Source: an uncultured bacterium
GTDB lineage: Bacteria > Patescibacteriota > Minisyncoccia > Phycocordibacterales > CAIZLB01
NCBI GenBank assembly: GCA_903848795.1
Contig: CAINHC010000031.1
Location: 1 to 43,686 of the forward strand
Length of the DNA stretch: 43,686 bases
Direction: 5' to 3'
Part shown: one piece after another, positions 28,737 to 43,686 of the stretch
How positions within the stretch are numbered: position 1 is the first letter of the stretch
Layout of the letters: each line of letters opens with the position of its first letter
Notes under the pieces: generated by a model
Seen by the model: only the letters and a program-made list of their open reading frames with translations
What the model was told of the DNA's origin: nothing
The model's database searches: none
Program-made: the position numbers and the translations under genes

Positions 28737-29558
28737 TTACTTATTATTCCTTTTATAATTTAAGGTCACATCCCTATTGGGCTTGATTTTTACATATTCA
28801 ACTCCTAAAGCAACCTTATACAAAGTCTCTAGACCCCGACTAGTATCCTTATGATGGAATTGGGGCTTCCACTTTAAATCGGCTAATGAATCACTGATTG
28901 TAAGTATCGTCCCCATTTCGACCTTTCTATACTCAGCAACAGCAAACAATGCAGATAATTCCATTTCTACTGTAGCAACGCCCTCTTTTTGATATTGCCG
29001 AGCCTCTTCTACAGTTTCTCTATATGGAGCATCAATAGTCCAGCTTGTTCCAATTGAATATTTTTCGCCAATATTTTCTAGTGCGGTCTTAATATTTGCG
29101 GTTAAGATTTTTGAAGCGTAACTATATTTAGAGGATTTTGCATAATGATGAGATACACCTTCATCCCTTATTGCACGATCACAAACAACTAAATTACCTA
29201 TCTTTAAATACTTTTGTAAAGCCCCAGCCGTGCCAATTGAAATGAATTCTTTAACTCCAAAGGCAATCAGCTCTTCCATTAGTGTGATAACTGCAGGTGC
29301 GCCAATGCCAAATCTTCCCGCAACCGCTATTTGCCCATTTGAGTCATCCAATATATACATTTCCCTGAAGCCTTCTATTTTAGTAACTTCATGTTGCGCA
29401 AGTATATAATTAAAAAAACTTTTGGAATAGCAAAAGATAACTCTTTTAGGTGCTTTGAAGCTTGGATATTTTCCAATCTTTTTTAGATACTTCAAAAAAT
29501 CCTTCGGATTAAATAATGCATCCTCAGCGTGTTTATTTTTAAAATTTGGAAATGTCAT
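28737..29558 (-). CDS. Nucleoside phosphorylase (PNP/UDP family)
   Basis: The protein is 273 aa. The phosphate- and ribose-binding segments are GRFGIGAPAVITLMEEL (about 81-97) and ISIGTAGALQ (about 106-115). EMELSALFAVA (about 199-209) with the downstream SDSLAD supplies the ribose- and base-binding residues. It most resembles uridine phosphorylase-like members; MTA/SAH nucleosidases share the fold. It salvages nucleosides to base plus ribose-1-phosphate. TAAAAT lies 6 nt before ATG. Confidence 0.88.
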   Translation of the reverse strand: MTFPNFKNKHAEDALFNPKDFLKYLKKIGKYPSFKAPKRVIFCYSKSFFNYILAQHEVTKIEGFREMYILDDSNGQIAVAGRFGIGAPAVITLMEELIAFGVKEFISIGTAGALQKYLKIGNLVVCDRAIRDEGVSHHYAKSSKYSYASKILTANIKTALENIGEKYSIGTSWTIDAPYRETVEEARQYQKEGVATVEMELSALFAVAEYRKVEMGTILTISDSLADLKWKPQFHHKDTSRGLETLYKVALGVEYVKIKPNRDVTLNYKRNNK

Positions 29559-29594
29559 GTAATTATTTTATGTTCGTTAAATAATAAGTAGATC

Positions 29595-30140
29595 TTATTC
29601 CTTCCACTCCCTATCCAAAAGACTCCAAATAAGCGTATCGTCATAGGAATCTTCTGACTTATGGTCCTCTCTTAGTGTACCGTCAAGCGTAAAACCAAGT
29701 CTCTTTGGAATAGCAGAGTTTTTTATGTTTAAGCTTCTGCATCTTATTACAATTCTATGAAGGCCGAGTTCCTTAAATCCATATTTGATTGATGTCCTAA
29801 CACATTCTGTCATCAAACCTCTCCCTTCAAATTCTGAGCTTAACCAATATCCAATTTCTCCCTGCTTGTCTTTATCATTTATACTAATAAAACCAACAGA
29901 TGCAATCCACTTGCCTTCATACTTTGCATAAAAAGAAGCCGCTTCTTTTTTTTCAAATTTTGCAATTCTCTCAATTATGTTATTTTCTATGTCTGTTGCT
30001 GATGTTGTTTTATCAACCCAAGCTAGCCATTCTCTTAAATGTTTTCTGTCTTTATCTATAATCTCATAAATATTTTGAGATTCCTCTGTTGTGGGTATTG
30101 TAAGAGATAATTTGTCGTTTATTTTTATTTCGAATGTCAT
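29595..30140 (-). CDS. GNAT acetyltransferase, RimJ/RimL-like
   Basis: The protein is 181 aa. REWLAWVDKTTSATDIENNI and GEIGYWLSSEFEGRGLMTEC (about 94-113) form the acetyl-CoA site. LGLHRIVIRCRSLNIKNSAI and LGFTLDGTLRE are typical of RimL-type acetyltransferases. The probable role is N-terminal acetylation of a ribosomal protein, or amine detoxification. It lies between hisS and the nucleoside phosphorylase on the same strand. Confidence 0.85.
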   Translation of the reverse strand: MTFEIKINDKLSLTIPTTEESQNIYEIIDKDRKHLREWLAWVDKTTSATDIENNIIERIAKFEKKEAASFYAKYEGKWIASVGFISINDKDKQGEIGYWLSSEFEGRGLMTECVRTSIKYGFKELGLHRIVIRCRSLNIKNSAIPKRLGFTLDGTLREDHKSEDSYDDTLIWSLLDREWKE

Positions 30141-30197
30141 TTTATTATGTGTTGTACGTTTTTATCTTTCTTATTTTTGCACAGTTTAGTCTTGTCG

Positions 30198-31547
30198 CTA
30201 CACCCTCAACCTCGCCACCAACTCCTGCTCGCCCACCAATTCCTGTTCACCAGAAACCATATCCTTGAGCATATATTTACCAGCTGACAATTCATCATCC
30301 CCTATCAAAATAACATAAGGAATTTCTAGCTTATTCGCATATGCAAGTTTTACCTTTGGCTTAACATCATCAAAATAGACTTCCGTTGGAACTCCTGCAT
30401 CACGCAATTTTGACGCAATACTAAATGGGACTTCCATGTTTTCGATCATTGGAATAACAAGAACTTTAGTTGGAGTAGAAGCTCCAGCTGCCGCATCAAT
30501 TATTCCAGCGTCTTTGAGCTGTGAAAACAATCTGGTTAGTCCAATTGATATCCCAACTCCAGGGAATTTCTTGTCTGAATACTTCTCTGCTAAGTTATCA
30601 AATCTTCCTCCGGAGCAAACTGATCCCACCTGAGGATAATCAGTCAGCTTAGTCTCATATACAGTTCCCGTGTAATAATCAAGCCCTCTTGCAATTGATA
30701 AGTCTATGGAAATATTCTTATCTGGTATGCCAAATAGTTTGATGTTTTTTATAACTTTACTAAGCTCCTCCACACCTGCATCAAACAGCTCACTCCTGGT
30801 TATTAACTTATCAGATAGACCTGCAATAGTGTACAACACATCTTCATTTGATCCTTTTATGTTAATAAAATTAAAGAGACCTGGTAGAACATTTTCTGGA
30901 ACACCAATTTCAACTAGCATTTTTGAAACCTCCTCTTTTCCAATCTTATCCAGCTTATCAATCGTACGCATTATCTCCACGCCAAGTTCCGCAACACCCA
31001 TTGATTCAAGAAGGCCGTTTATAATTTTGCGATTATTTATCTTAATCATAAAAGGACCAAAATCCAATTTAGAAAATACGGAGTAAATTATACTTGGAAT
31101 TTCGGCGTCATTCATTAGAGAAAGTGTCTCTCTGCCGATGATATCAATATCACATTGATAAAATTCCCGAAAACGGCCCTTCTGTGGACGCTCTCCCCGA
31201 TAGACCTTTGCAATTTGTGATCTTCTGAATGGAAAAACCAAATCTTGCTGATGTTCAGCAACGTATCTTGCTAGTGGAATTGTAAGATCAAATCGGAGTG
31301 ACAAATCATTGTCCCCTTTATTGAATCTATAGATTTGCTTTTCAGTTTCTCCACCCGCCTTTGCAAGTAGTACCTCCGACCTTTCAATTGCTGGAGTATC
31401 AATAGAAATAAAACCGAACTGTTTGTAAGTTAGGGCAATTATGTCCTTCATTCTATCGAATGCCATTTGATCTTTTGGAGTAAGCTCCATGAATCCGGGA
31501 AGAACAGCGGTTATTATATTGTCGTCTTTGTTAGTTTCATTAGACAT
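30198..31547 (-). CDS. hisS: Histidyl-tRNA synthetase
   Basis: The protein is 449 aa from the ATG at 31545-31547. An upstream in-frame extension (to 31685, with CPVC) is open, but I reject it because the identical 57-bp sequence upstream of proS has a stop in that frame. Class II motifs: motif 2 at VYRGERPQKGRFREFYQCDI (about 118-137); HisRS-specific LSIARGLDYYTGTVYET (about 281-297) and GGRFDNLAEKYS. The C-terminal anticodon domain ends with a small tandem duplication GEQELVGEQELV. Confidence 0.94.
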   Translation of the reverse strand: MSNETNKDDNIITAVLPGFMELTPKDQMAFDRMKDIIALTYKQFGFISIDTPAIERSEVLLAKAGGETEKQIYRFNKGDNDLSLRFDLTIPLARYVAEHQQDLVFPFRRSQIAKVYRGERPQKGRFREFYQCDIDIIGRETLSLMNDAEIPSIIYSVFSKLDFGPFMIKINNRKIINGLLESMGVAELGVEIMRTIDKLDKIGKEEVSKMLVEIGVPENVLPGLFNFINIKGSNEDVLYTIAGLSDKLITRSELFDAGVEELSKVIKNIKLFGIPDKNISIDLSIARGLDYYTGTVYETKLTDYPQVGSVCSGGRFDNLAEKYSDKKFPGVGISIGLTRLFSQLKDAGIIDAAAGASTPTKVLVIPMIENMEVPFSIASKLRDAGVPTEVYFDDVKPKVKLAYANKLEIPYVILIGDDELSAGKYMLKDMVSGEQELVGEQELVARLRV

Positions 31548-31587
31548 GTGATTATAATAGTATAAATATGGGTTTGGAGCAATTTTT
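31531..31587 (-). repeat. 57-bp promoter/start-codon duplication, hisS copy
   Basis: It is identical base for base to 42740-42796 upstream of proS. It spans TTGCTC, the 17-nt spacer, TATTAT, 6 nt, ATG and the first codons (MSNET). A third, degenerate copy lies at 37880-37905. Confidence 0.9.
31548..31582 (-). promoter_or_regulatory. Leaderless-type promoter of hisS
   Basis: TTGCTC (31577-31582), 17 nt, TATTAT (31554-31559), 6 nt (AATCAC), ATG. Confidence 0.7.
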
Positions 31588-31709
31588 TGAATTTCTTCTT
31601 CCATAAGACTCATTAGTATTGTTTGAAATCTACATACAGGGCATACACTTAGTCTTTCCCTGTCACAATTGATACCAACAATCAATACACCTACACTAAT
31701 GAATGGGTA

Positions 31710-32828
31710 TTAAGGATAGGTTTCAATATTCTTTAGTCTGGGATATATGATAGAGTTTTTAATATCATCACGGCACAAACTCCAAGTGATAAATCTTTCA
31801 ATACCCATACCAAAACCAGAGGTTGTCTTATACCCCCGAACGTTCCTTAAATTAATATACCATTCGTATGGTTTGATATCTATATTCTGTCTAGATAGTG
31901 ACAAAATCATTTCTTGCGTGTTGTCTTGTCTTTGCCCACATCCAACTATTTCACCACCAAAAGAACCAGATACAATAGGTGGAAAAATTAAGTCTGCATT
32001 GATTACTTTATTTGGATTAGTTTCATCTGGTTTTTGATAAAACGGCACTCTATCACGATCGTAGTTTTTAATCCAAAAAGGAGTTGTGAATTTGAATATT
32101 TCAGATATTTTTATTTCTCCTTCAGCTAAGATGTCACGTCCAGATTCGGTGATTTTTACTAAATTATCATTACCGCTTTTGACTAATGATTCAAATGCTT
32201 CGTCAAAAGTAATCTCTGGAAATTTTTCTAACGCCAATAATCTCATGAGTGATTCCTTTGTCATTTTTACATCTAAACTTAACCTCTCTAATATATTGGG
32301 CATACAGAGTAGTTGTTCTGATAGACTTTTAATGTATTTTTCTATTACTGGAATTAATTCCTTTAAAGTAACGGAGAACTCGGCTTCACAATGAAAAAAT
32401 TGATTTAAATGTCTTTTGTCTGGGTCTTCTCCTCGCATCGATGGTAAATAACAGTAGACTTTTTCAATTTTATTGAGCAACAAAGGTTCAAAACCAAACT
32501 GTGAAGAATCAACTAAATTTGAATTATACTTACCAAATTTAATTGGAATTGCTTCTGAGTTTGATCCAAGACCTGCAGGAGATGAAATACTCTGAGTAAG
32601 CATGAATAAATCAATATTTTTTGCTTCGCACTCAATGCTAAAATAATAATCAGATATCATCTTAATGTAATGTCTTAATGTTATAAGAGCTCGAAAGTAT
32701 TCACTTCTTGTCAATTCTAAATAGTGAGTCTTTGGGTTGTATTCGGGTAGTTTGTAGGGTTCTGACGTGATACTTTTGAATATTGAATCGTCCTTTTTAA
32801 TCAGCTTTTTTAAATAAACTGGTATCAT
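31710..32828 (-). CDS. AsnRS/AspRS-like synthetase core without anticodon-binding domain
   Basis: The protein is 372 aa, the last gene of the six-gene operon. It is a class IIb catalytic core. SPAGLGSNSEAIPIKFG (about 83-99) and DSSQFGFEPLLLNK precede motif 2, MRGEDPDKRHLNQFFHCEAE (about 130-149). Motif 3 is SGFGMGIERFITW (about 336-348). ATP-site Arg and Glu residues are kept, so amino acid activation is plausible. The N-terminal OB-fold that AsnRS and AspRS use for the anticodon is absent; the protein starts close to motif 1. The archaeal asparagine synthetase related to AsnRS is a known precedent. Because asnB is in this genome, a specialised amide- or ester-forming role is likelier than free Asn supply. 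Confidence 0.85.
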   Translation of the reverse strand: MIPVYLKKLIKKDDSIFKSITSEPYKLPEYNPKTHYLELTRSEYFRALITLRHYIKMISDYYFSIECEAKNIDLFMLTQSISSPAGLGSNSEAIPIKFGKYNSNLVDSSQFGFEPLLLNKIEKVYCYLPSMRGEDPDKRHLNQFFHCEAEFSVTLKELIPVIEKYIKSLSEQLLCMPNILERLSLDVKMTKESLMRLLALEKFPEITFDEAFESLVKSGNDNLVKITESGRDILAEGEIKISEIFKFTTPFWIKNYDRDRVPFYQKPDETNPNKVINADLIFPPIVSGSFGGEIVGCGQRQDNTQEMILSLSRQNIDIKPYEWYINLRNVRGYKTTSGFGMGIERFITWSLCRDDIKNSIIYPRLKNIETYP

Positions 32829-32840
32829 TTTATTGTAAAA

Positions 32841-33878
32841 TTAAGAAACAGATGATTCACTGATAAATATTATATCTCGTTTCGAATCTATTTCAGTGTT
32901 TATACCAAATGGTAGTGTTATGATTGGATCACAATGTCCGATGTTGGCATTCAATACTATGGGGTAATCATGCTTTTGTGTGTAATATAGGATAAGCTTT
33001 TTAAGCTGATTACAATCATCATCTGAATAGTTATAGGGACGTCCTATTATTAGTCCTTTTATTTTATCAAATACTCCCATATTATCTAAATCCGATAAGT
33101 ATGAATCAAGCACACTAATTGGCAACCCCTCCCCAAATTCATGACCTTCTGGTATATCTATAAAAAATATGCAGCCCGTTGGATCAACCCAGTATTCAGT
33201 TCCAGTTAAGTGATTTATTGACGGAACACAACCACCAAAGATAGGTCCTGAAGCATAACCTTGTTTTAACCAATCATACCCTTCGGATGCTATTAATTTT
33301 CTTGGCCTATCTAAATCCTTCTTAACTGTCCAGTCAAGGATTTCTGCAGTCCACTCTTTTGATTGAAAAATCTCTCCAATCGGTTCTAGGGATGTAAGTG
33401 CTTTATTAAAATACTCTAAAGTATAGGGAAGAATTTCTGGGTATTCGCCAAATTGAGTCATTGCACATGGCCCATAAAATGTTTGCAGATTAGAACGTTT
33501 TATAAATGCATAATGTAACACTGATATATCAGAAAAGCCAATGAATATCTTTGGATTGTTTTTTATTAGTTCAAAATCCAAATATTTCAACACTTGGCTA
33601 GAATGGTCTCCTCCAATTGTACAAATTATTGCAGAAATATCTTTGTCTTTAAACATCTCATTGATATCTGACGCTCTTTTTTCAGGCTCAGAAGAAACAT
33701 AATTATTTCTTTCTAAAGAGTGTCTGGCAAATTTGACTTTGTAGCCGAGTTTTTCTAGTGCCTTAACCGCATTCTCAATTCTATGGGGAAAAATATTTGC
33801 ATTACCAGCTGATGGGGCAACTATACCAATTGTGTCCCCTTTTGATAACCTCTTCGGCTTTATTAATTTTATATTCAT
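32841..33878 (-). CDS. S66 serine peptidase, MccF-like
   Basis: The protein is 345 aa. The nucleophile elbow is IGFSDIS with Ser116, preceded by ICTIGGDHSSQVLKYLD. The His is in NIGHCDPIITLPFG (His315). The MccF-type insert EWTAEILDW, GYDWLKQG and FGGCVPSINHLTGTEYW (about 175-230) fits MccF, which cuts aminoacyl-nucleotide amides, better than LD-carboxypeptidase LdcA. The position of the catalytic Glu reads Asp241 (FFIDIPEG instead of FLETSE). It overlaps the ProRS-like gene by 4 bp and is 12 bp before the AsnRS-like gene. An immunity or product-trimming role is inferred; plain murein recycling is the alternative. Confidence 0.85.
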   Translation of the reverse strand: MNIKLIKPKRLSKGDTIGIVAPSAGNANIFPHRIENAVKALEKLGYKVKFARHSLERNNYVSSEPEKRASDINEMFKDKDISAIICTIGGDHSSQVLKYLDFELIKNNPKIFIGFSDISVLHYAFIKRSNLQTFYGPCAMTQFGEYPEILPYTLEYFNKALTSLEPIGEIFQSKEWTAEILDWTVKKDLDRPRKLIASEGYDWLKQGYASGPIFGGCVPSINHLTGTEYWVDPTGCIFFIDIPEGHEFGEGLPISVLDSYLSDLDNMGVFDKIKGLIIGRPYNYSDDDCNQLKKLILYYTQKHDYPIVLNANIGHCDPIITLPFGINTEIDSKRDIIFISESSVS

Positions 33879-35128
33879 ATAGTAGTTTTTTTATTAATTA
33901 TTTTTTCATTGATAGACCCTCGAGTTTTTAAAGGTAAAAGTATTTTTTTAAGAGAATTCATTGTTCCGCAACGTTGACAACTTGAAAACTCATTTGGATG
34001 ATATGCGCCCAAAGAACTGAATTCTTGCAATACATTTTCGCATTTTTTACATAAAAACTCAACCCTGTAATTATTTAAACATTTTATGAAGTGTCTTTTG
34101 TTATTTTCGAAAATAGCACGATCACTTTTGCGTAACAATTCTTGAATCATATTAAAGTCAGTCAACTTTCCAACTTCATTTGTGAATATTACTTTATAGA
34201 ATATTTCTCCATTTTTCATAAATAAAGTTAAAATTGATTCAACTTCATTGCAAAAACTATCACCTTCTTCTCCTATTATATCTGGAATATCAATACTGAC
34301 CTTGTATCTTATATTGTTTTTTAAAAAATCTTTTATTTTAATATATGCATTTTTAGACATTAGTACTTGAATAGGAGCGATACAGCTTGGCCACACCACA
34401 TTAATTTTATCTTCTTGCATTATACAATAAATATAAATTATTCTACCGCTAAAACCATACTGAATTATCTCTTTATTTATTATATTATCACCTCTTGGAA
34501 AATTCTTCGATAATACATACATCGTCGAAGCAACAGTGATCGTTTCTGAACTTTCTGACATTAACGGCAAAAACATCCTATTGGCAAACTTTTTAAATCC
34601 ATCTTCTTGTTCTACCCACAGATGTGGAAGAAGTATTTTATCAAAAAACGAATTTATTGATGGTATAACCTTTTTAGTAATAACATTAACAGACAAACTC
34701 TTTTTAGTGGACATAACAAAACTCAGCGCAGGCCAAATTCTTTGGTCAATAAGTAGGGCTTTCGGTTGAAACTCTCTGTATAAAGGAGTGTTTATCATAA
34801 TTATTGAACTGCTATTTAATTCGAGTTTTTTCAGCAAGATGCTTGTGTTTTCAGGTCGGATTGCGTAGTTAAGGGTGGTTGAAGAAAATACATTTTTATA
34901 ATTTGAAATTTTCTTGTATATATTATTGTAGTTATTTATTCTTATAATACTTCCACATGTAATATTTTTCACTTTCCCCACAAAGGATAATTCATTATTT
35001 AGTACACTATACATATTCTTTACAAGTTTTATCCCCTGAGATCTCCAGACGTAATGTCCACTCATTATAGGTTCTTGAAACAAAATCTTTGTCTTGTCCA
35101 ATTTATATATAATAGTATTTTTTTTCAT
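33875..35128 (-). CDS. Degenerate ProRS-like class IIa protein with C-terminal zinc ribbon
   Basis: The protein is 417 aa. It aligns by eye with the proS product of this window: YAIRPENTSIL against [25 protein letters not shown] against the motif 2 region; WVEQEDGFKKFANRMF against [30 protein letters not shown] against motif 3; and VVWPSCIAPIQVLMS (about 244-258) against the start of the anticodon-binding domain. Several motif 2 ATP-contact residues are changed, so aminoacylation is doubtful. Residues about 358-386 add a CxxC-n-CxxC zinc ribbon. It may be a pseudo-synthetase that binds an aminoacyl adenylate, a tRNA or a partner. It is 6 bp after the 154-aa gene. Confidence 0.7.
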   Translation of the reverse strand: MKKNTIIYKLDKTKILFQEPIMSGHYVWRSQGIKLVKNMYSVLNNELSFVGKVKNITCGSIIRINNYNNIYKKISNYKNVFSSTTLNYAIRPENTSILLKKLELNSSSIIMINTPLYREFQPKALLIDQRIWPALSFVMSTKKSLSVNVITKKVIPSINSFFDKILLPHLWVEQEDGFKKFANRMFLPLMSESSETITVASTMYVLSKNFPRGDNIINKEIIQYGFSGRIIYIYCIMQEDKINVVWPSCIAPIQVLMSKNAYIKIKDFLKNNIRYKVSIDIPDIIGEEGDSFCNEVESILTLFMKNGEIFYKVIFTNEVGKLTDFNMIQELLRKSDRAIFENNKRHFIKCLNNYRVEFLCKKCENVLQEFSSLGAYHPNEFSSCQRCGTMNSLKKILLPLKTRGSINEKIINKKTTI

Positions 35129-35134
35129 ATTTAG

Positions 35135-35599
35135 TTACATGGTTAAGAAAAAGACGCCGGTCTTTACTGAAAAGTTGTCATTTTTAAACTCCCTGAAAGA
35201 CATCTTATGATAGTTAAATATACTTCTCAGCTGTTTTATCTTTGAATAGTTTATAATTTGGCAGATACATAAAGTTACTTCTTTATAATCTTCATTAAAA
35301 GCACTTCCTATTGAGAAAGCCCCTGCATGTCCATCTTTGAGCAACCTCCTTACTTGAGAATATAATAATATGTTTGTATTTTCATCTCCATCTGAACGGA
35401 TATAAAATTCTTCTTGTTTTGTATTACCCTTAACATTAATAAAATCTTTCTTTTTGTAACGAATATTATCTGAATAGTAAATACCGTCTACCAAAATTCG
35501 CTTTTTGTCATTACACACTTTAGACATCATCATTTCTGATATTTGTTCTAAACCAATTTCTTCTAATTCTAATATTAATTTGGAATAGTTTTTTATCAT
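35135..35599 (-). CDS. Unrecognised 154-aa protein of the aaRS-like operon
   Basis: No family is recognised with confidence. Residues 76-110 (ILLYSQVRRLLKDG, AFSIGSAFNEDYKEV) have the rhythm of a class II synthetase motif 2 region (x-FxIGxxFRxE ... EFT) as in PheRS, SepRS or PylRS, but the Arg is not conserved and the protein is far too short for a full core. It overlaps the upstream methyltransferase by 4 bp and is followed 6 bp later by the ProRS-like gene, so it is translated as part of the unit. There is no signal peptide or membrane helix. Confidence 0.65.
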   Translation of the reverse strand: MIKNYSKLILELEEIGLEQISEMMMSKVCNDKKRILVDGIYYSDNIRYKKKDFINVKGNTKQEEFYIRSDGDENTNILLYSQVRRLLKDGHAGAFSIGSAFNEDYKEVTLCICQIINYSKIKQLRSIFNYHKMSFREFKNDNFSVKTGVFFLTM

Positions 35600-36510
35600 A
35601 TTTTTTCTATATTATACGTAAAACATCCTGGTTTAATTCTAATCACTCCTTCATTATCCATAAAGTTTTTAAAATATTCTGTCAACTCACCTACCACTAT
35701 TGGCAATAAAGGACTTTCATTAAAGTATGATTCCATGTGAAAATTTAAGAATATTTCTAATGCTTCATCTAAAGATGAATATTCAATATCTTCACCTTCA
35801 TGGTGTGATAAAGTAAGGTTTATGAGACATTCTTTTCTTAACTCTTCAAATATTTCGTCGAGCAATAGTTTTGATGGACTTTGAATTTCAATATTATTAT
35901 AGAGTGTAAAGACTTTTTTCCACTGACTCATCAGTATCTCCTGCTCTTCTGAAGTTGAATCAAAGTGTATGATAAAAAGCCTTGAACCTTTTATCATATT
36001 GTTTATTATTACTTTTTTAATCGTATCCCTGACGTATCTTCCTCCAGAAGTTACCCCCTGATTAATTAGTATTTGATGTACAGAGTGAGAAAAGCTCCAT
36101 AAGCTAAAGATGACATCATATTTATCATTGGTTTTAGATAAAAATTCCACTGAATCTGATTTTACAAAACTTGTTTTTTTAAATCTTTTTCTACAAAATT
36201 CCAACATCCTTATACTTAAATCAACCAGTCTTAATCTTACCTTTCCATCTTTAAATTTATTTAGAAACACTTCAGTCGCTCTACCTGATCCACACCCAAG
36301 CTCCAGTGCATTAATCGCGTTGTAATTATTATTTGTCATACTACTAAGAAATTCATCGAACAATTGCAAATCAGTTTTTCCTGAAAAAACATATTCTTTC
36401 AGTAGACGATCGTAGTAACATGGTTCAATGTAGTCCTCTATGGTTGTAGTAATTTTTAACCATGGATATCTTTCGTATAAATCTAATCTGTTATTATTGA
36501 ATAGATTCAT
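35596..36510 (-). CDS. Class I SAM-dependent methyltransferase with C-terminal extension
   Basis: The protein is 304 aa. Motif I ALELGCGSGRATEVF is at residues 68-82, the acidic end of strand 2 is RLRLVDLSIRML (about 92-103), and YDVIFSLWSFSHSVHQIL gives motif IV (about 130-147). Residues after about 190 are helical and may form the acceptor site. It lies 8 bp after the first methyltransferase gene. The substrate is unknown; in this operon an amino acid, peptide or nucleotide acceptor is conceivable. Some family members transfer aminocarboxypropyl groups instead of methyl. Confidence 0.82.
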   Translation of the reverse strand: MNLFNNNRLDLYERYPWLKITTTIEDYIEPCYYDRLLKEYVFSGKTDLQLFDEFLSSMTNNNYNAINALELGCGSGRATEVFLNKFKDGKVRLRLVDLSIRMLEFCRKRFKKTSFVKSDSVEFLSKTNDKYDVIFSLWSFSHSVHQILINQGVTSGGRYVRDTIKKVIINNMIKGSRLFIIHFDSTSEEQEILMSQWKKVFTLYNNIEIQSPSKLLLDEIFEELRKECLINLTLSHHEGEDIEYSSLDEALEIFLNFHMESYFNESPLLPIVVGELTEYFKNFMDNEGVIRIKPGCFTYNIEKI

Positions 36511-36518
36511 GTTTTTAA

Positions 36519-37358
36519 CTATATTTTTGTAGCTACCGTAAAAATGTTCATACCTCTATTTGCAATTTCTGGCTTGCTGTTATACTTCATCTCAAGTTCA
36601 AAAACCTTCTTGAAAAAACTATTTTTTTCAAGCGCAGAAGAAATTCTACTCTTCTTTGAATTTTCTTTGTCAAAATCCTCAGGACCTGGCTGTGCAAATA
36701 CAGGTACACCATAGGTTCTATTAATTAGAAAATGAGCATTTTTAAGATCGTCTTCCATGGTTTCTTTTGCAAAAACATTAAGTTCCGGAACATGTTCACC
36801 CCATTTAACTATTTTTTTATTATCTAACTTCTTAAGTTCTTCGTTTCCAGCACAATAATTATTAATTTTTGAACCCAGTGCGTTATAAAATCCATGACCC
36901 ATTATAATTATTTTGCCACCTTTTTTTAGAATTCTAAACAATTCTGTAAAAGCTTTTTCTTTTTTATAAATAAAACTAATTGGACTATATATACTTATAA
37001 TGTAATCTATAGATTCATCCTTTAATTCCATCATGTTTTTCAAGTCTCCGTGAATAACTTTTACCCTGTTGACGATACCGGAATTATTAATATTTTTGAC
37101 GGCCTGATTTATCATGTCCTTAGACTTATCATAGATAATAAAATCTGATTTATATATGCTACTTAGATTACAAACCCACCTGCCGGTTCCTCCACCTGCA
37201 TCTAATATAATTGAATTTTTACTAATATTAGTAGGTATATTATCATTAATTATTTGTGTAATTAATGCATCAGACAATTTCCAAAAACCATGCTTGTTGG
37301 CGTTGTCGACATTCTTTGAATAAGGCTTGAAAAAGGCATCAAATTGGTTATTATTCAT
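36519..37358 (-). CDS. Class I SAM-dependent methyltransferase, first gene of the operon
   Basis: The protein is 279 aa. Motif I is ILDAGGGTGRWVCNL (residues 51-65), motif II IIYDKSKDM, and motif IV DESIDYIISIYSPISFIYK, with LKKGGKIIIMGHGF as post-motif (Methyltransf_11/25 type). The C-terminal third is probably the substrate lid. It opens the six-gene operon. A palindrome TGACTTA-TTT-TAAGTCA (37408-37424) about 50 bp upstream could be an operator. Confidence 0.83.
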   Translation of the reverse strand: MNNNQFDAFFKPYSKNVDNANKHGFWKLSDALITQIINDNIPTNISKNSIILDAGGGTGRWVCNLSSIYKSDFIIYDKSKDMINQAVKNINNSGIVNRVKVIHGDLKNMMELKDESIDYIISIYSPISFIYKKEKAFTELFRILKKGGKIIIMGHGFYNALGSKINNYCAGNEELKKLDNKKIVKWGEHVPELNVFAKETMEDDLKNAHFLINRTYGVPVFAQPGPEDFDKENSKKSRISSALEKNSFFKKVFELEMKYNSKPEIANRGMNIFTVATKI

Positions 37359-37407
37359 ATTTTATTAATACTTGAGTTATTTTCTATTAATAGATATAGA
37401 ATATACC

Positions 37408-37424
37408 TGACTTATTTTAAGTCA
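37408..37424. promoter_or_regulatory. Palindrome in the operon promoter region
   Basis: A perfect 7-bp inverted repeat TGACTTA / TAAGTCA around TTT, next to a TTGACT-like -35 on the minus strand and TATATT downstream. It is placed as an operator for the methyltransferase operon. Confidence 0.4.
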
Positions 37425-37484
37425 ATATAAGAGAATTGACAATATTTTGTAAAGGCATAAAATCTAAACTAGATCATAAACAGA

Positions 37485-37545
37485 TATTTCAGTCGAGAAT
37501 TTCAGAGGTAAACTTTTTTTGTTACTGAAATCCTCGACTGAAATA
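37485..37545. repeat. 21-bp inverted repeat between divergent genes
   Basis: Arms at 37485-37505 and 37525-37545 (TATTTCAGTCGAG ... CTCGACTGAAATA) pair over 21 bp with a single mismatch around a 19-nt T-rich loop. No T-run follows on either side, so it is not an ordinary terminator. It sits 28 bp before the ATG of the small membrane peptide. Confidence 0.8.
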
Positions 37546-37572
37546 CAAACCACAGTTGAGGAACTGTACAAA

Positions 37573-37743
37573 ATGAAAAAGAAACACAAGATAGTCGCCA
37601 TATTTATGGTCTTCCTAGCCTTATTATGTGGTCTTTGGGCTGTACTGTCAGGATATCCATTCCCGAATCCGCAGGGTGTACCGAGTAACGGAATGGAATC
37701 ACCTTCTGTGCCGCAAAACATATTTCAATCCGAAAAGCAATAA
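37573..37743 (+). CDS. 56-aa membrane-anchored small peptide
   Basis: The start is ATG 37573, supported by GAGGA about 11 nt upstream; the frame is open further to a TTG at 37519. It has a basic N-terminus (MKKKHK), one hydrophobic helix (IVAIFMVFLALLCGLWAVL) and then a polar proline/asparagine-rich tail with YPFPNPQGVPSN. It looks like a small membrane protein or an uncleaved signal-anchored peptide. It is the only plus-strand gene in this half of the window apart from the right edge. It is divergent from the aaRS-like operon and has its own terminator. Confidence 0.55.
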   Translation: MKKKHKIVAIFMVFLALLCGLWAVLSGYPFPNPQGVPSNGMESPSVPQNIFQSEKQ

Positions 37744-37815
37744 ACCTACAGGTTACAGCTTTAAAAGATTGACAATTAGTGAATAAAATCACCTGGACTA
37801 GAAATCCAGCACAAC

Positions 37816-37855
37816 AACCGCCTGACCCAAGTGTTATCTTGAGAGGCGGTTTTCT
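37816..37855 (+). terminator. Terminator of the 56-aa gene
   Basis: AACCGCCT / AGGCGGTT stem (37816-37823, 37844-37851) followed by TTCTAATT. Confidence 0.7.
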
Positions 37856-37879
37856 AATTGATATAGGTTGGCCATATAT

Positions 37880-37905
37880 ATAAATATAACTTTGGAGCAA
37901 TTTTT
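37880..37905 (-). repeat. Degenerate third copy of the hisS/proS promoter segment
   Basis: It matches the 57-bp duplication over TATAAATAT and TTTGGAGCAATTTTT (24 of 27 positions). The -10 position is spoiled. The next ATG (37875) opens only a 13-codon frame, so it is probably inactive. Confidence 0.6.
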
Positions 37906-37925
37906 GGTTTTTTAAAATAGCGGCT

Positions 37926-39512
37926 CTATTTTAAAGTATTAATTTGATAAATATTCTCAATTTCCTCGACATAAACTTTATAATCTGGAATTCTAGTTAA
38001 TACCCCATCAGACAATAGATAAGTTAGATCAAGTGATGCCTGCTCAAGAAAGTATCTATCATGAGACACAATCAAGACTGAGCCTTTGTATGTTTTAAGA
38101 GTTTCCTCCAATGCCTCAAGCGCTTCAATGTCCAAATGATTTGTCGGTTCATCCAATACCAGTAAACTCACAGATTCAGCAGAAAATAGTGCGAGTAAAA
38201 GCCTAGCTCTTCCACCAGGGCTTAAGTTGCCAATTGAATGCCTCATTTGTTTTTCATCAAAGCCAAATTTAGCTAGTTGAACATACGATTCTTGCTCATC
38301 CTCATATGCACGCTCTGTCAAAAACTCCAAGAGAGTCTTGTCCTTCGGAAGCGTCTCATGCTCCTGCATCATGTTTCCAATCTTTAAACCCGAACCAAAT
38401 TCCACTTTTCCGCTAAATGCCTTTAGTTTACCTGTAATTGTTTTAAGTAAAGTAGATTTTCCTGACCCATTCAAACCCATAATTCCAACTCTATTACCAT
38501 ACATTAATTCAAATGAAATTGGCTCAGTTCTAAATCCATCAGGATATCCTGCAATAACCTCAATCAATCTAATGTCTCTTGTTCCAGCTTTTTTCTCAGC
38601 ATCTAGAGAAATTTTAAATAGTTCCCTCTCTATTGGCTTTTCAGCCTTATCCATTTGTTCAACCCTCTTCTCCACAACCTTCGCCCTACGTCCAGCCTTG
38701 CCCGCCATATCTCTATTATATCCTTGTAAATATTTATCATTATCACTTCCAACCCACTTTGCACCCTTTACTGATTCAGCCTTCATCTCCCTTGCTCTTT
38801 TAATTAGTCTCTCTATTTCCTCTTGCTGATCATTATATTCTTCCTTTTGTCGATGAAGTTTCTTCGCAAGAGTTTCTAGGTAATCGCCATAGGTTCCATT
38901 GGTTATATTTAATGAATGAGTTATCCAATCTATCTCAAAAATCTTTTTAACAACTCGGTCCAAAAATCTTCTATCATGAGAAATCAAAATACAAGCTGCT
39001 TCTGTTTCATTAATAAATTTCTCAAGCCAAATTAAAGCTGGTAAATCAAGATTATTTGTTGGCTCATCTAAAAGAAGTAAGTCTACGCCCTTAAGTAATA
39101 TTCCAGCAAGAATAATTTTACTCTTCTGACCACTACTTAGCTTTGCGACACTATGACCAAGGTCAATATCCCTTAAACCAAAGCCTGTGAGAATCGAATT
39201 CATTCTGTGTGGAAAATCATAATCGTCAATTGCAATCTCTGCTGTGCTTTTCAAATATTCTTCAATGGTTTGATCTGTGATTAGACTAGTGTCTTGTGGC
39301 AAATATCCGATCTTAATGTCCTTCAAAATATTAATCGACCCAGAATCTGCTTCTTCAGTTCCAGTAATTATTTTTAGAAGTGTAGTTTTTCCAGTTCCAT
39401 TATTACCAACAAGTGCAACCTTCTGTCCTTTTTCAATAGTAAAAGTGACGTTCGACAGAACATCTATTAATCCATAGCTTTTATTTATTTTTTCAGCTTT
39501 TATGAGGCTCAT
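37926..39512 (-). CDS. ABC-F family ATPase
   Basis: The protein is 528 aa, two tandem ABC domains and no membrane segments. Walker A motifs are GNNGTGKTTLLK (about 36-47) and GLNGSGKSTLLK (about 345-356). Signatures are LSSGQKSKI and LSPGGRARL. Walker B/D-loops are LLLDEPTNNLD and LVLDEPTNHLD. The charged linker between domains fits the P-site tRNA-interacting region of ABC-F proteins. It acts on ribosomes as a translation factor (EttA/Uup-like) or as antibiotic protection; which one cannot be told. TATAAT is 5 nt before ATG. Confidence 0.92.
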   Translation of the reverse strand: MSLIKAEKINKSYGLIDVLSNVTFTIEKGQKVALVGNNGTGKTTLLKIITGTEEADSGSINILKDIKIGYLPQDTSLITDQTIEEYLKSTAEIAIDDYDFPHRMNSILTGFGLRDIDLGHSVAKLSSGQKSKIILAGILLKGVDLLLLDEPTNNLDLPALIWLEKFINETEAACILISHDRRFLDRVVKKIFEIDWITHSLNITNGTYGDYLETLAKKLHRQKEEYNDQQEEIERLIKRAREMKAESVKGAKWVGSDNDKYLQGYNRDMAGKAGRRAKVVEKRVEQMDKAEKPIERELFKISLDAEKKAGTRDIRLIEVIAGYPDGFRTEPISFELMYGNRVGIMGLNGSGKSTLLKTITGKLKAFSGKVEFGSGLKIGNMMQEHETLPKDKTLLEFLTERAYEDEQESYVQLAKFGFDEKQMRHSIGNLSPGGRARLLLALFSAESVSLLVLDEPTNHLDIEALEALEETLKTYKGSVLIVSHDRYFLEQASLDLTYLLSDGVLTRIPDYKVYVEEIENIYQINTLK

Positions 39513-39546
39513 TTTTGATTATATTAGACATTTGTTTGCCAAGTGC

Positions 39547-39852
39547 CTATCCAAAATATTCAACGCTTTTCAATGCTATTTCTTTAAAATCATCACTAAC
39601 ATTTGCAAAGTCCACCAAGTTTATAGTGTATGGGGTCTTTAATTCTTTAAGTTTATCTTGTATCTCTGCTATCTTAGATGCATCTATTTTCTTGCCCATT
39701 ATCCCAACATCTATATCTGATCGTTCTCCTCCTGTTCCGTTTACTCTAGAACCGAAAAAGAATATCTTATACTCGGATAATCTGATATAAGACTTTAGAG
39801 CATCAATTATTCCAGCCTCTATAATTCTTTGGTCTTGTTCTTTTAATTTCAT
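39547..39852 (-). CDS. MNT-type nucleotidyltransferase (antitoxin)
   Basis: The protein is 101 aa. The minimal nucleotidyltransferase motif is FFGSRVNGTGGERSDIDVG (about 31-49): GS plus the metal-binding Asp-x-Asp, with a third acidic candidate at about 80 (NLVDFA). In HEPN-MNT (type VII) modules this enzyme adenylylates and silences the HEPN RNase. Its start codon shares one base with the HEPN stop, giving translational coupling. Confidence 0.9.
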   Translation of the reverse strand: MKLKEQDQRIIEAGIIDALKSYIRLSEYKIFFFGSRVNGTGGERSDIDVGIMGKKIDASKIAEIQDKLKELKTPYTINLVDFANVSDDFKEIALKSVEYFG

Positions 39853-40238
39853 TATTTACTTAATAATTTTGATAAATTATGAAAAGTCTCAGACATAGAT
39901 TTTGCTGATATGGCCACTTCTTCTGCGATTAGTTCTTCATACTCATGAGCTGTTTGATTACGAGTATCTCTCATTTTTGTCCACTTTTTGAAATCTTCCT
40001 CATCAAAAACTGAAACGAGAAAGGCAGATTTAAAAGATTGTATTGGAGATTGAATTTCTTGTTGGGAGTACTCTACTTCAAGAAAGTTTTTGAGCGATTT
40101 CCATCCCGTATCAAAAGTGAACTCAAATCTTTTAATTAGAGCGTCTCTCTCGATGGCGTTTTTTGGCTCTAAAACCTCATCAAATCTGTCCAAGGCGTTT
40201 AGAAATTCTTTTATTTTTTTATCTAGTTTTTCTCTCAT
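39852..40238 (-). CDS. HEPN-domain protein (toxin of MNT-HEPN pair, HI0074-like)
   Basis: The protein is 128 aa, all-helical. The HEPN catalytic Rx4-6H motif is seen in MRDTRNQTAHEYEE (Arg and His near residues 92-97). FEFTFDTGWKSLKNFLE is typical of the nucleotidyltransferase-substrate-binding HI0074 subfamily. It is predicted to be an RNase toxin held in check by the MNT partner downstream. A TACAAT is 9 nt before the start. Confidence 0.88.
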   Translation of the reverse strand: MREKLDKKIKEFLNALDRFDEVLEPKNAIERDALIKRFEFTFDTGWKSLKNFLEVEYSQQEIQSPIQSFKSAFLVSVFDEEDFKKWTKMRDTRNQTAHEYEELIAEEVAISAKSMSETFHNLSKLLSK

Positions 40239-40272
40239 GATGTTTATATTGTAATATAATAGGTCTTTATAA

Positions 40273-40386
40273 TCAATCTAAGTCTTCATCTAGATCTTCA
40301 TATACCTTGTTACGCGGCCCTGACCAATTCTCTTCACTTTTCCAGGTCTTAGTGATAATTACTAATATATCAGTTTTTATCAGATT
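40273..40386 (-). pseudogene. Start-less 37-codon ORF, possible gene tail
   Basis: The open frame ends in TKTWKSEENWSGPRNKVYED and an acidic tail, with protein-like composition. Only a CTG (40381-40383) could serve as a start. It may be the relic of a gene now lost, lying between the HEPN gene and the 168-aa cassette. Confidence 0.25.
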
Positions 40387-40397
40387 TTATCAGATTA
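40368..40397. repeat. Three 10-bp tandem repeats
   Basis: TATCAGTTTT, TATCAGATTT and TATCAGATTA follow each other with exact helical phasing. They lie 130 bp upstream of the HEPN start codon and might be an operator array. Confidence 0.5.
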
Positions 40398-40433
40398 GGC
40401 AAGGTACATTTTTGAATATTTATGTAAAAGTAA

Positions 40434-40460
40434 AACCCCAGCCGAATTGCTGAGGTTAGG
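40434..40460 (-). terminator. Terminator of the 168-aa gene
   Basis: Minus strand ACCTCAGC-AATTC-GGCTGGGGT stem followed by TTTACTTTTAC. Confidence 0.75.
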
Positions 40461-40496
40461 ATTTGAACGCCAAATATCCTAAAAGCGTTTTGACAT

Positions 40497-41003
40497 TTAC
40501 TTGATTTGACCAGTTTTCACCAGATATGCCCTAACTTGAGCCCCGTCGGTGTCGCCGCATTTTTCGAGAAAACTCCTATGTCTATTGCTCATCGAAACAA
40601 TGGTGACACATCCTTCTGGTCCGCGCAACCAAGGGTCATCGGTCCAGACCAACCAGTCGCCGAAACGTCCATCCTGGCTAGCTTTAGAACTAAGTAGTTC
40701 ATCCATAGTAGGTAAACGCCAAGTTTGCTCACCAGGCTTGACCAAATCACGATTGATTTCCTCAACCAGAGTACGAAGTTCTTTAATGCTCCATACCCTA
40801 CCGAGAAAAATCGTTTCGAGCTCTTGGTCTAACTGTCCAGCGACATCGGCATCTGCGAGGGTTTCTACTCTTTTCATTTCATCGATATTGGAGACATCAG
40901 ATATGGCTATTTGGCCGTTTAAGAAACGACGAACTCCATCTAACCCGCCAAGCTTATTAACTATAGCTTCCATCATTCCCCAATCCATTCTTGGATATTT
41001 CAT
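40497..41003 (-). CDS. 168-aa hypothetical protein in a GC-richer stand-alone cassette
   Basis: The N-terminus MEAIVNKLGGLDGVRRFLNG resembles short proteins I associate with Parcubacteria genomes (NKLGG...FLxG). The middle is acidic, and the C-terminal half has WRLPTMDELLSS, DWLVWTDDPW and CVTIVSMSNRHRSF. The function is unknown. The codons are more GC-rich than those of the neighbours. It has a promoter at 41167-41195, a leader of about 155 nt with two hairpins, a Shine-Dalgarno-like GAAGGGA and a private terminator. Confidence 0.7.
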   Translation of the reverse strand: MKYPRMDWGMMEAIVNKLGGLDGVRRFLNGQIAISDVSNIDEMKRVETLADADVAGQLDQELETIFLGRVWSIKELRTLVEEINRDLVKPGEQTWRLPTMDELLSSKASQDGRFGDWLVWTDDPWLRGPEGCVTIVSMSNRHRSFLEKCGDTDGAQVRAYLVKTGQIK

Positions 41004-41044
41004 TTTTTTTTGGTTCCCTTCTTAACTACTAGTTACGAGTTGAA

Positions 41045-41129
41045 TCTACCCCTGATAGGGGAAGATACTGGACCGATTAGTCACAGCCAAAATAGACCTA
41101 AGGTTAAGACTGTTGTGGTTGTGACTAAT
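41045..41129 (-). promoter_or_regulatory. Structured leader of the 168-aa gene
   Basis: ATTAGTCACAGCCAAAA (41076-41092) pairs with 41113-41129 over 17 bp with two mismatches. A second small hairpin CCCC-TGATA-GGGG (41050-41062) follows toward the gene. It may be a regulatory leader or attenuator. Confidence 0.5.
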
Positions 41130-41166
41130 TTGTAAATGTTTTAAAAGAACTAATAATTCACTACAT

Positions 41167-41195
41167 ATAGTAGCATCGTTTGTTATAAAAGTCAA
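41167..41195 (-). promoter_or_regulatory. Promoter of the 168-aa gene
   Basis: TTGACT (41190-41195), 17 nt, TACTAT (41167-41172). Confidence 0.55.
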
Positions 41196-41211
41196 TATAC
41201 CTCGCCGACGG

Positions 41212-42756
41212 CTAGTACGACTTCGCAAACACCACCCTCCCCTTCGATGGCTTACCAGACTTGATACACACCCCATTCTCCAACTTTTGATCAAATGGAA
41301 TACATCTAATTGTTGCAGCGGTTTCTTCTTTAATTTGAGCCTCAACATCAGCATCACCTGACCAGTGAGCGTGAACAAAGTTACCAGCTTCAATTTCTTT
41401 TACAAAATCTTCCCAAGTATCCACCACCTTTTCTTTTTCCTTTCTGTAAGCGAGTGCACGATCATATAGATTAGCTTGAATTGCTTCAAGCGTATTTGAG
41501 ACAGTCACAACAACATCGTCCGCAGAGATTGAAGTCTTCTCTCCGGTGTCGCGTCTTGCCATGAACAATGTATTGTTTGCCAAATCCTTTTTACCAAGTT
41601 CAAGTCTAACGGGCACACCCTTTCTCTCCCATTCGTAAAATTTCTCACCTGGCCTAATATCTCTTGAGTCAATTTTAACCTTAATTCCCTCTTCTTTTAG
41701 CCATGAAGAAACTTCTTGAGCTTTGGCAATAATAAGATCACGATCTTCATCGTTGTTTATTATGGTTGTAATTACAACTTGCACTCCCGCAATCTTTGGA
41801 GGAAGAACAAGACCCTTGTCATCAGCGTGAGTCATAATAAGACCACCGATCATTCTCGTGCTAACTCCCCAACTTGTTTGCCAGCCGTATTCCATAGTAT
41901 TCTCACGGCCCAAGAATTTAACATCAAATGCTTTTGCAAAATTTTGTCCCAAGTGGTGAGATGTTCCAAATTGAAGCGCCTTTCCATCTTGCATAATTGC
42001 TTCTACACAATATGTTTTGAATGCTCCAGCAAATTTCTCCGATTCAGTTTTAACTCCCAAAATTACTGGAATTGCCAAAACATCTTCTGCAAATTGTCTG
42101 TAAATTTCAAGCATCTCTCTTGCGCGTTCATCAGCTTCTTGTTCTGTTTCGTGAACTGTGTGACCTTCTTGCCATAGGAATTCTACTGTACGCAAAAATA
42201 AACGAGGACGCATTTCCCATCTGATAACATTGGCCCATTGATTAATTAGTATAGGTAAATCTCTGTATGATTGAATCCAGTGTGAAAAAGTATCGTACAT
42301 TATTGTTTCCGATGTTGGTCTAAGAACCAATGGTTCATCTAACTTCTTTCCACCAGCGTGAGTAACAACGGCAATCTCAGGTGCGAATCCTTCAACGTGA
42401 TCCTTTTCCTTATTCAAAAAACGCTCTGGAATAAACATCGGAAAATAGGCATTTTCAACTCCAGTTTCTTTGAAGCGAGCGTCCAATTCCTTTTGCATGT
42501 TTTCCCAAATAGCATAGCCTGTTGGCTTGATTATCATACATCCCTTTACTGGGCTGTACTCTGCCATATCAGCTGCCTTGATTACATCGAGATACCACTC
42601 AGAATAATCTTGTGATCTTGGTGTGATTACGTTACTACCCTTCGAGATATCTTTCTTTGCACCGTTGTTGACGTCGCTGGCAGCTTTAGTTGCATCAGCG
42701 GTGCTAGTGTTGCTGGCGTCTGTAGCGCTAGCGTTTGTTTTAGTTTCATTAGACAT
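41212..42756 (-). CDS. proS: Prolyl-tRNA synthetase, archaeal/eukaryotic type
   Basis: The protein is 514 aa. Residues 1-42 are a Ser/Thr/Asn/Ala-rich low-complexity extension. The class IIa core has [14 protein letters not shown], motif 2 [20 protein letters not shown] (about 168-187) and motif 3 [14 protein letters not shown]. The HGTP anticodon domain contains [20 protein letters not shown]. The C-terminal zinc domain characteristic of this type is short, and the protein ends in GRVVFAKSY with the terminal Tyr typical of the class. It lacks the bacterial INS editing insert. The promoter and first codons are duplicated from, or into, hisS. Confidence 0.95.
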
Positions 42757-42796
42757 GTGATTATAATAGTATAAATATGGGTTTGGAGCAATTTTT
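42740..42796 (-). repeat. 57-bp promoter/start-codon duplication, proS copy
   Basis: It is identical to 31531-31587. TTGCTC (42786-42791), 17 nt, TATTAT (42763-42768), 6 nt, ATG. Confidence 0.9.
42757..42791 (-). promoter_or_regulatory. Leaderless-type promoter of proS
   Basis: The same elements as hisS: TTGCTC-N17-TATTAT-N6-ATG. Confidence 0.7.
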
Positions 42797-42834
42797 CATA
42801 TTTACGAAATTGTGTTTCTTTTTAAATTTAGGTA

Positions 42835-42862
42835 GAAGAAAAGGCGGCCCTTGCGGACCGCC
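42835..42862 (-). terminator. Terminator of the 195-aa gene
   Basis: A perfect 8-bp GC stem GGCGGTCC-GCAA-GGGCCGCC on the minus strand is followed by TTTTCTTCT. Confidence 0.85.
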
Positions 42863-42881
42863 AGTTGAATCCATTTTCTCA

Positions 42882-43469
42882 TCAGGTGAGAGGGGGTGAA
42901 TAAGACCCGTAATCTGATGCTTCCACCGGAGAGGTTCTCCTTATTGCGACCTCTTGTGCCCCCTGTGTTTCTTGGATGAATTTGAGCAGGGCTCCAGCGG
43001 CACAAGAAATTCTGCAGACGTCGCCCCTGCGCTCTGAGGCGGTTCTGAGACCAAGGAAATGGCTGATGGTGTTGGAATCCCGTCTACCTAACCATGCGTA
43101 TCTAGCGATAGAGTAACTGCTGTATGAAATGGTTTCAACAGCCAACTTTTCATTTGGCCTGAGTTGCCACACGGCAATGTCTCCAAGCGCATCGACGTAT
43201 GCTTCAGCCGACACATTCTCGTCAAAGAGATTTTTACAGCCTTTGTTATAACACAAAATCAATGCTGCTTCGTTGGCAGCAAAGAGAGATGAGACCACAA
43301 GATCAAATTCTTGAGTATCTCGCGACAAATTCTGGCCAATAGCGTTCCCTTGGCGGACATTGTTATAGTCCCTGCTGGCGTTAACAACGGCCATGATTAT
43401 GTTGGTTGAATTCAAAAGGCGCTGGACCATTTCGAAAACGGTTTCTCGGTGTGATGCTGGTTGGTTCAT
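42882..43469 (-). CDS. 195-aa hypothetical protein in a GC-richer cassette
   Basis: It is a soluble-looking, mostly helical protein with no signal peptide. Notable stretches are FEMVQRLLNSTNIIMAVVNA (about 12-31), FAANEAALILCYNKGCKNLF (about 63-82) and CRISCAAGALLKFIQETQ near the C-terminus. Four or five cysteines are present, without a clear metal motif. No family is recognised. Codon use is more GC-rich than the neighbours. It has a private GC-rich terminator and no Shine-Dalgarno. Confidence 0.65.
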   Translation of the reverse strand: MNQPASHRETVFEMVQRLLNSTNIIMAVVNASRDYNNVRQGNAIGQNLSRDTQEFDLVVSSLFAANEAALILCYNKGCKNLFDENVSAEAYVDALGDIAVWQLRPNEKLAVETISYSSYSIARYAWLGRRDSNTISHFLGLRTASERRGDVCRISCAAGALLKFIQETQGAQEVAIRRTSPVEASDYGSYSPPLT

Positions 43470-43590
43470 TATTTCTGTTTCTAACGGTTGGTGGTTGTGG
43501 TGATTGAATTTCGGTGTTTAACTGTCAAAGAAAGTTCCAGAATTGGTGCAACTCGAACTTAAGTTTTAATATTTTTCTCTGATTTTCTGC

Positions 43591-43596
43591 TATAAT
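43591..43596 (+). promoter_or_regulatory. -10 element before the right-edge gene
   Basis: TATAAT with 6 nt to the ATG at 43603, the same leaderless spacing as in other genes here. No good -35 is visible. Confidence 0.45.
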
Positions 43597-43602
43597 TTTT
43601 AT

Positions 43603-43686
43603 ATGAAAAAAAGAAACAGAAGCGATTAACGAAGGTCGATCGTGACGAAATTCATTTGCTCAAAAGAAAGGGTTACACTCAGATTG
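43603..43686 (+). CDS. Partial gene: N-terminus of a possible IS30-like transposase, frame interrupted at an A7 run
   Basis: The window ends inside it. ATG 43603 in its own frame reaches a stop after 8 codons. A -1 shift in the run of seven A (43606-43612) gives a basic start and then RLTKVDRDEIHLLKRKGYTQ, which resembles the helix-turn-helix opening of IS30-family transposases. Programmed slippage on the A-run, a mutation or a base error could explain the break. The identification rests on about 25 residues. Confidence 0.35.

Follow-up and report, generated by a model that had tools for sequence, protein, structure and literature searches.

The six-gene operon at positions 31710 to 37358 (minus strand) of contig CAINHC010000031.1, a stretch of 43,686 nucleotides from an uncultured bacterium of the Patescibacteria that was analyzed at its full length (the window), is probably a mobile gene cluster of the agrocin 84/microcin C kind. 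It would make an aminoacyl-nucleotide inhibitor of tRNA synthetases, probably an N-acyl phosphoramidate, with its S66 peptidase serving as immunity hydrolase. The genome of the host comprises about one million bases. All six open reading frames (ORFs) are located on the minus strand with intergenic gaps or overlaps of +8, −4, +6, −4, and +12 bp, as given in the initial annotation, a reading of the letters alone that had also guessed that the operon is concerned with an aminoacyl-type small molecule.

Homology to the agrocin 84 cluster

The guess of an aminoacyl-type product is now well supported by homology to the agrocin 84 genes of plasmid pAgK84 from Rhizobium rhizogenes K84; the existence of this characterized antibiotic cluster with the same core had been overlooked. 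Both clusters comprise an AgnA-type synthetase without anticodon domain, an adjacent methyltransferase, an AgnC5-type S66 peptidase, and an AgnC1 homologue, and both are mobile. Unlike pAgK84, the window has no AgnB2-type resistant LeuRS and no ABC transporter and lacks the remaining agn genes (including agnC2, agnC4, agnC6, and agnC7), whereas it has a 154-aa protein and a second methyltransferase. In TM84, the active toxic part of agrocin 84, a stable N-acyl phosphoramidate replaces the anhydride of leucyl adenosine monophosphate (Leu-AMP) and LeuRS is inhibited; AgnB2 serves as a second, resistant LeuRS (PMC5059758).

The AgnA homologue is the last gene of the operon (31710..32828, minus strand, 372 aa), an asparaginyl-tRNA synthetase (AsnRS)-like core, hereafter ASL. 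It matched PF00152 (1.5e-26) and AsnRS models (1e-42; Pfam/NCBIfam), and the matches began at around residue 122 of the AsnRS model, in line with the claimed absence of the anticodon-binding OB domain. A tblastn search of plasmids with ASL retrieved AgnA, the "agrocin 84 synthetase" of pAgK84 (4e-36, 32% identity across 90% of the protein), and the catalytic residues are common to both. AgnA has been reported to be a truncated AsnRS that lacks the anticodon domain (PMC4392301); an experimental account of its reaction was not found in the open-licence literature. In ASL, the class II motif arginines R132 (motif 2) and R345 (motif 3), the Mg ligands D279/E293, and the side-chain pocket residues E148/R300 were invariant wherever aligned (34 relatives). 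By comparison with Thermus AsnRS, we take E148/R300 to be the Asn-pocket pair. Judged by these residues and its domain content, the class II adenylation site of ASL is complete, whereas an anticodon cannot be recognized.

It is very improbable that ASL is an asparagine synthetase A of the AS-AR type within an operon for asparagine or amide metabolism. Like ASL, asparagine synthetase A and the archaeal AS-AR consist of a class II AsnRS/AspRS core and lack a tRNA-binding domain, their models score near those of AsnRS (129 versus 146 bits), and several ASL relatives carry the RefSeq label "asparagine synthetase A". However, both scores lie far below the curated cut-offs (389 bits for asparagine synthetase A, and 414 bits), and the Asn-specific, AsnRS-type glutamate E148 in the side-chain pocket is invariant. 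Moreover, the distribution is sporadic and tied to S66 peptidases and synthetase-like partners: close homologues (47–69% identity) were present in 3 of 147 related genomes and in none of the five further congeneric genomes. No ASL was found in IMG/VR viral contigs.

Related loci in other genomes

A profile scan of species genomes yielded 35 loci, most of them from Patescibacteria; the exceptions were located on a Calothrix plasmid and in a Woesearchaeote, a Gammaproteobacterium, and a metagenome-assembled genome (MAG) of the Desulfurellales. After duplicate removal 36 loci were compared, namely the window and 35 others. An S66 gene was located within approximately 9 kb of ASL in 32 of the 36 loci, and a relative of the first methyltransferase of the window likewise in 32. 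Among the four loci without S66, one contig (L043) ends inside ASL, and another (L028) has an S51 peptidase instead; detoxification of processed microcin C is also known from this peptidase family (MccG; PMC9239234). In L028 (11079-14180), a KamA-like aminomutase, an AlaRS-like protein, and the S51 peptidase adjoin ASL, which may represent a swap of the immunity enzyme plus a β-amino acid building block.

The initial annotation had named as a refuting outcome that the six genes are never found together elsewhere. This is literally so, as the exact six-gene set was not found in another genome, but the core set of ASL, S66, methyltransferase, and a second synthetase-like core recurs in dozens of genomes. 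Plasmid clusters with an AgnA-like protein, a methyltransferase, and S66 were found in Bradyrhizobium elkanii, Peribacillus (plus an AlaRS-like protein and a full AlaRS), Xenorhabdus (plus a ProRS-like protein and LeuRS), and Streptomyces sp. NBC_01707 (plus a ProRS-like protein, a molybdopterin enzyme, and a cytochrome P450). An Exiguobacterium plasmid locus comprises an AgnA-like protein, a methyltransferase, an AlaRS-like protein, and AlaRS; the stretch shown contains no S66. No description of such clusters beyond agrocin 84 was found in the open-licence literature.

Two further observations concern individual loci. On the Streptomyces plasmid (L108, 7971-16113), the AgnA-like protein, methyltransferase, flavin adenine dinucleotide (FAD) plus molybdopterin enzyme, ProRS-like protein, and S66 form a candidate phosmidosine-type cluster; phosmidosine is a prolyl phosphoramidate of 8-oxoadenosine. 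A 360-aa protein in L042 was considered as a class I synthetase from HIGH- and KMSKS-like motifs and was discarded, as no database match supports it.

The MccF-type S66 peptidase

The S66 peptidase (32841..33878, minus strand, 345 aa; S66 family 1e-39) is an AgnC5 homologue (35% identity over 329 aa, 1e-71) and a probable self-immunity hydrolase. Its claimed affinity to MccF was borne out by the PDB comparison, in which the closest proteins were MccF-like (6e-60) and LdcA was far weaker (2e-8 to 2e-11). The catalytic residues S116 and H315 were invariant in all 27 cluster S66 sequences, and W183 was conserved in 26 of these. The reading that we credit least, an ordinary murein LD-carboxypeptidase in an incidental neighborhood, has in its favor that S66 is the LdcA family and that the genome of the window has no other S66. 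It conflicts with the structural ranking, with the presence of S66 near ASL in nearly all loci, and with the evolution of S66 along with the partner type (see below).

An S66 above the family cut-off was present in 17 of 148 related genomes. Outside ASL loci, 11 S66 genes of full length were compared, none of which adjoined an ASL or a second synthetase-like gene. Stand-alone MccF-like S66 with approximately 49–57% identity to cluster S66 occur in genomes without the cluster (L086, L087, L088, L089, L091, and L092), one of them from the same genus; these are possibly resistance genes of neighbors.

Stand-alone genes of this kind, and the report that MccG and MccF homologues frequently stand alone (PMC9239234), are what speaks for the operon as a resistance or detoxification island, in which S66 and the methyltransferases would inactivate aminoacyl-nucleotide antibiotics of others and the synthetase-like proteins would act as decoys. 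We consider this improbable: S66 alone would suffice for such a function, yet no catalytic residue of ASL is lost across 34 sequences, sister loci contain tailoring enzymes (cytochrome P450, KamA-like aminomutase, glycosyltransferase, radical S-adenosylmethionine [SAM] enzyme), and the agn genes to which the operon is homologous serve biosynthesis.

The 417-aa protein and the second synthetase-like partner

The gene upstream of S66 (33875..35128, minus strand) encodes a 417-aa protein with a C-terminal CxxC...CxxC zinc ribbon that occupies the operon slot of a second synthetase-like partner. It is related to AgnC1 of pAgK84 (blastp 4e-6; z 8.8, 0/500 shuffles, colinear), a kinship detected solely by direct comparison. 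Taken alone, the earlier label "degenerate ProRS-like" is weak: NCBIfam proS_fam_I matched at E 0.01, and in local alignments the protein was colinear with family-I ProRS at z 3–5 for 6 of 10 sequences, with no signal from four control proteins. The clear relative is AgnC1. The local-alignment test was adopted as a version with free end gaps, which rewards short corner overlaps, gave z values of about 0. As read from the weak ProRS alignment, the WQEGH and GTSH-type motifs are not kept. No PDB match was obtained, a scan of genome contigs and a tblastn search of phages and plasmids gave no relatives, AgnC1 is the only one detected, and no direct similarity to the ProRS-like partner of Streptomyces was observed (z 0.15). 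An AlphaFold2 model calculated without homologues was uninformative (predicted local distance difference test score [pLDDT] 30).

Another synthetase-derived protein was present in 29 of the 36 loci: 13 AlaRS-like, 11 HisRS-like, three LysRS-like, one ProRS-like (the truncated protein of L043), and the window's own. The AlaRS-like partners matched alaS with E values down to 3e-14 and AlaRS structures at 2e-8; they retain the motif-2 Arg and have lost the motif-3 Arg, and in 11 of 12 the Asp that contacts the alanine amino group is replaced by Glu. AcmF, the truncated AlaRS-like, tRNA-dependent alanyl transferase of the ascamycin pathway, carries the identical change D232E and is accompanied by the spare AlaRS AcmD (PMC12945691). 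The HisRS-like partner is a 383-aa family (11 sister loci) with AGIGYY in place of RGLDYY; its AlphaFold2 model (pLDDT 80) has the class II HisRS fold, with Z 20–23 to HisZ/HisRS.

The type of partner was scattered over the ASL tree (9 changes versus 10.1 shuffled for ALA; 8 versus 9.5 for HIS/PRL) and clustered on the S66 tree (3 versus 9.8 for ALA; 4 versus 10.6 for HIS/PRL; 0/500); in the methyltransferase tree, ALA was clustered (4 versus 7.8, 0/500). In addition, a loop of S66 varies by partner type, and in L037 S66 and the AlaRS-like partner are fused in a single 692-aa ORF. These patterns suggest that S66, methyltransferase, and partner tend to swap together around a constant ASL, although the trees, built from short searches with related rows, are suggestive and not proof. 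An S66 substrate that contains the addition made by the partner would explain why both are exchanged together, and the pattern further suggests that the partner sets the aminoacyl part.

Spare synthetases accompany several clusters. The genome of L032 has three GlyRS, two of which flank the cluster, and L036 has two GlyRS; L047 and L035 contain a LysRS-like copy besides the housekeeping one, and L043 its truncated ProRS-like copy besides a full ProRS. Such copies may serve as resistant targets in the manner of AgnB2 or, like AcmD, charge tRNA.

The likeness to the ascamycin system leads to a somewhat unlikely alternative, in which ASL and its partner are transferases, dependent on aminoacyl-tRNA or adenylate, that load an amino acid onto a nucleoside (e.g., a sulfamate) without formation of an N–P bond. 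The AlaRS-like partners with their lost motif-3 Arg and AcmF-like Asp-to-Glu exchange fit this idea, and the AlaRS/GlyRS near clusters parallel AcmD beside AcmF. Against it stand that no sulfamate-forming genes were recognized, and that the closest characterized ASL homologue belongs to a phosphoramidate pathway. The ascamycin system also differs in that the window has no AlaRS-like protein, and in that the sister loci pair AlaRS-like proteins with AgnA-like proteins and S66, which are unmentioned in the published acm account. As regards the partner step, an AcmF-like route is compatible with the preferred assignment as an agrocin 84-like cluster.

Methyltransferases and the 154-aa protein

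The two predicted SAM-dependent methyltransferases were confirmed by Methyltransf_25 matches: MT1, a core cluster gene (36519..37358, minus strand, 279 aa), at 1e-16, and MT2 (35596..36510, minus strand, 304 aa) at 3e-10. The profile of the cluster methyltransferases matched Arad_15003, located beside agnA on pAgK84, at 159 bits; MT1 itself gave no direct blastp match to it. A relative of MT2 adjoined ASL in one other locus only (L040, 43%), beside an MT1 copy. The 154-aa protein (35135..35599, minus strand), earlier listed as unknown, indeed gave no significant match in Pfam, NCBIfam, PADLOC, or any fetched locus. PADLOC retrieved generic methyltransferase matches only.

Insertion of the operon

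In a genome of the same genus (G001, locus L081), hisS directly joins an ABC-F gene, whereas blastn comparison revealed a clean insertion of 6.35 kb between them in the window (31594..37943; hisS extends to 31593 and ABC-F starts at 37944) that carries the whole operon. The 10-mer TTGCTCCAAA, a motif of the hisS leader, is present in one copy at the uninterrupted G001 junction versus two at the insertion edges in the window, at the hisS-proximal edge (31573..31582, minus strand) and the upstream edge (37891..37900, minus strand). The GC content of the operon is mostly about 29–34% versus about 34–45% in most adjacent genes. By these features of the DNA, the operon is horizontally acquired and mobile.

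An identical 38-bp leader, TTGCTCCAAACCCATATTTATACTATTATAATCACATG, precedes hisS (31545-31582) and proS (42754-42791), both on the minus strand; the genome contains no further copy (≤3 mismatches). The two genes may share it for regulation, and the insertion may have used it as its recombination site. The possibility that the operon-adjacent hisS is a spare resistant copy was rejected, as it is the only hisS of the genome above the cut-off and occupies the same place in operon-less genomes of the genus.

Proposed function of the cluster

In the pathway that we infer, ASL would most likely couple an adenylate to a carboxyl or amide group derived from an amino acid, giving a stable aminoacyl-AMP mimic; as in agrocin 84 and microcin C, this would be an N-acyl phosphoramidate. 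The catalytically altered, synthetase-derived partner, here the AgnC1-like protein, would supply or install the variable aminoacyl part by adenylation, by tRNA-dependent transfer, or as a scaffold; aminoacyl-tRNA is a possible source, in parallel to AcmF in the ascamycin pathway. Decoration of the product would fall to the methyltransferases, and competing cells would be hit at one of their aminoacyl-tRNA synthetases. The producer would be protected by the MccF-type S66, which presumably cleaves the acyl-nucleotide amide, and in some relatives a spare aminoacyl-tRNA synthetase could confer a second protection. With microcin C, the operon shares the MccF-type S66 and the presumed aminoacyl-nucleotide chemistry, and the MccG-like S51 that replaces S66 in L028 extends this likeness. 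It differs from mcc clusters in that the six genes include no ThiF-like MccB, recognized precursor peptide, or exporter, and a synthetase-derived enzyme would carry out the activation. The initial annotation had rightly placed the operon as related to, yet not, a classic microcin C cluster; in the Pfam search, neither the six genes nor three neighbors showed a ThiF domain.

Several points weigh against this assignment. Agrocin 84 is the only such cluster with a known product or activity, and between AgnC1 and the 417-aa protein the match is a distant one (21% over 159 aa). As enzymes of the AgnA type have a likeness to asparagine synthetase A too, the bond formed by ASL could be an amide instead of N–P. 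The operon has no second full-length synthetase, and the sole true hisS and proS, which lie nearby, look housekeeping. Most loci are MAG contigs, several of them truncated. Finally, the operon has no exporter and none of the pentanamide and sugar genes of agrocin 84. As recognizable exporter, sugar, or base-modifying genes are absent from the window, the product may be simple or rely on host functions.

On a broader scale, the loci may tentatively be read as a modular, ribosome-independent assembly of aminoacyl-nucleotide antibiotics, likewise independent of nonribosomal peptide synthetases, that is widespread in ultra-small Patescibacteria: a constant AgnA-type linker would be combined with exchangeable degenerate synthetase cores (Ala, His, Pro, Lys) that choose the amino acid, each with a matching S66. 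Few antibiotics are known from Patescibacteria, which may thus produce nucleotide antibiotics that target tRNA synthetases. The comparison defines a common core around AgnA with many natural variants. If the modular reading is true, the variable partner predicts the amino acid that is mimicked, so that the chemistry and target become directly testable predictions; cultured carriers are Calothrix parasitica NIES-267, Bradyrhizobium elkanii, Peribacillus, Exiguobacterium, Streptomyces, and Xenorhabdus.

Other features of the neighborhood

Upstream of the operon, the window contains a near-perfect inverted repeat, ATTTCAGTCGAG...CTCGACTGAAAT (37460-37560), and a 74-aa ORF with a single membrane span (37519-37743, plus strand) overlaps this region. 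Rfam gave no match in 29000-43686. Two overlapping ORFs at 39547-40238, nucleotidyltransferase (MNT)-like and HEPN-like, are not present between ABC-F and proS in G001 and possibly constitute a toxin–antitoxin pair. Downstream of hisS, a RimL-like acetyltransferase (29595-30140, 3e-24) and a nucleoside phosphorylase (28737-29558) lie in a block that is missing from G001 and from a second genome, G004; a third one, G003, carries the RimL-like acetyltransferase without the operon. Aminoacyl-nucleotides can be acetylated by RimL-type enzymes (PMC3817062).

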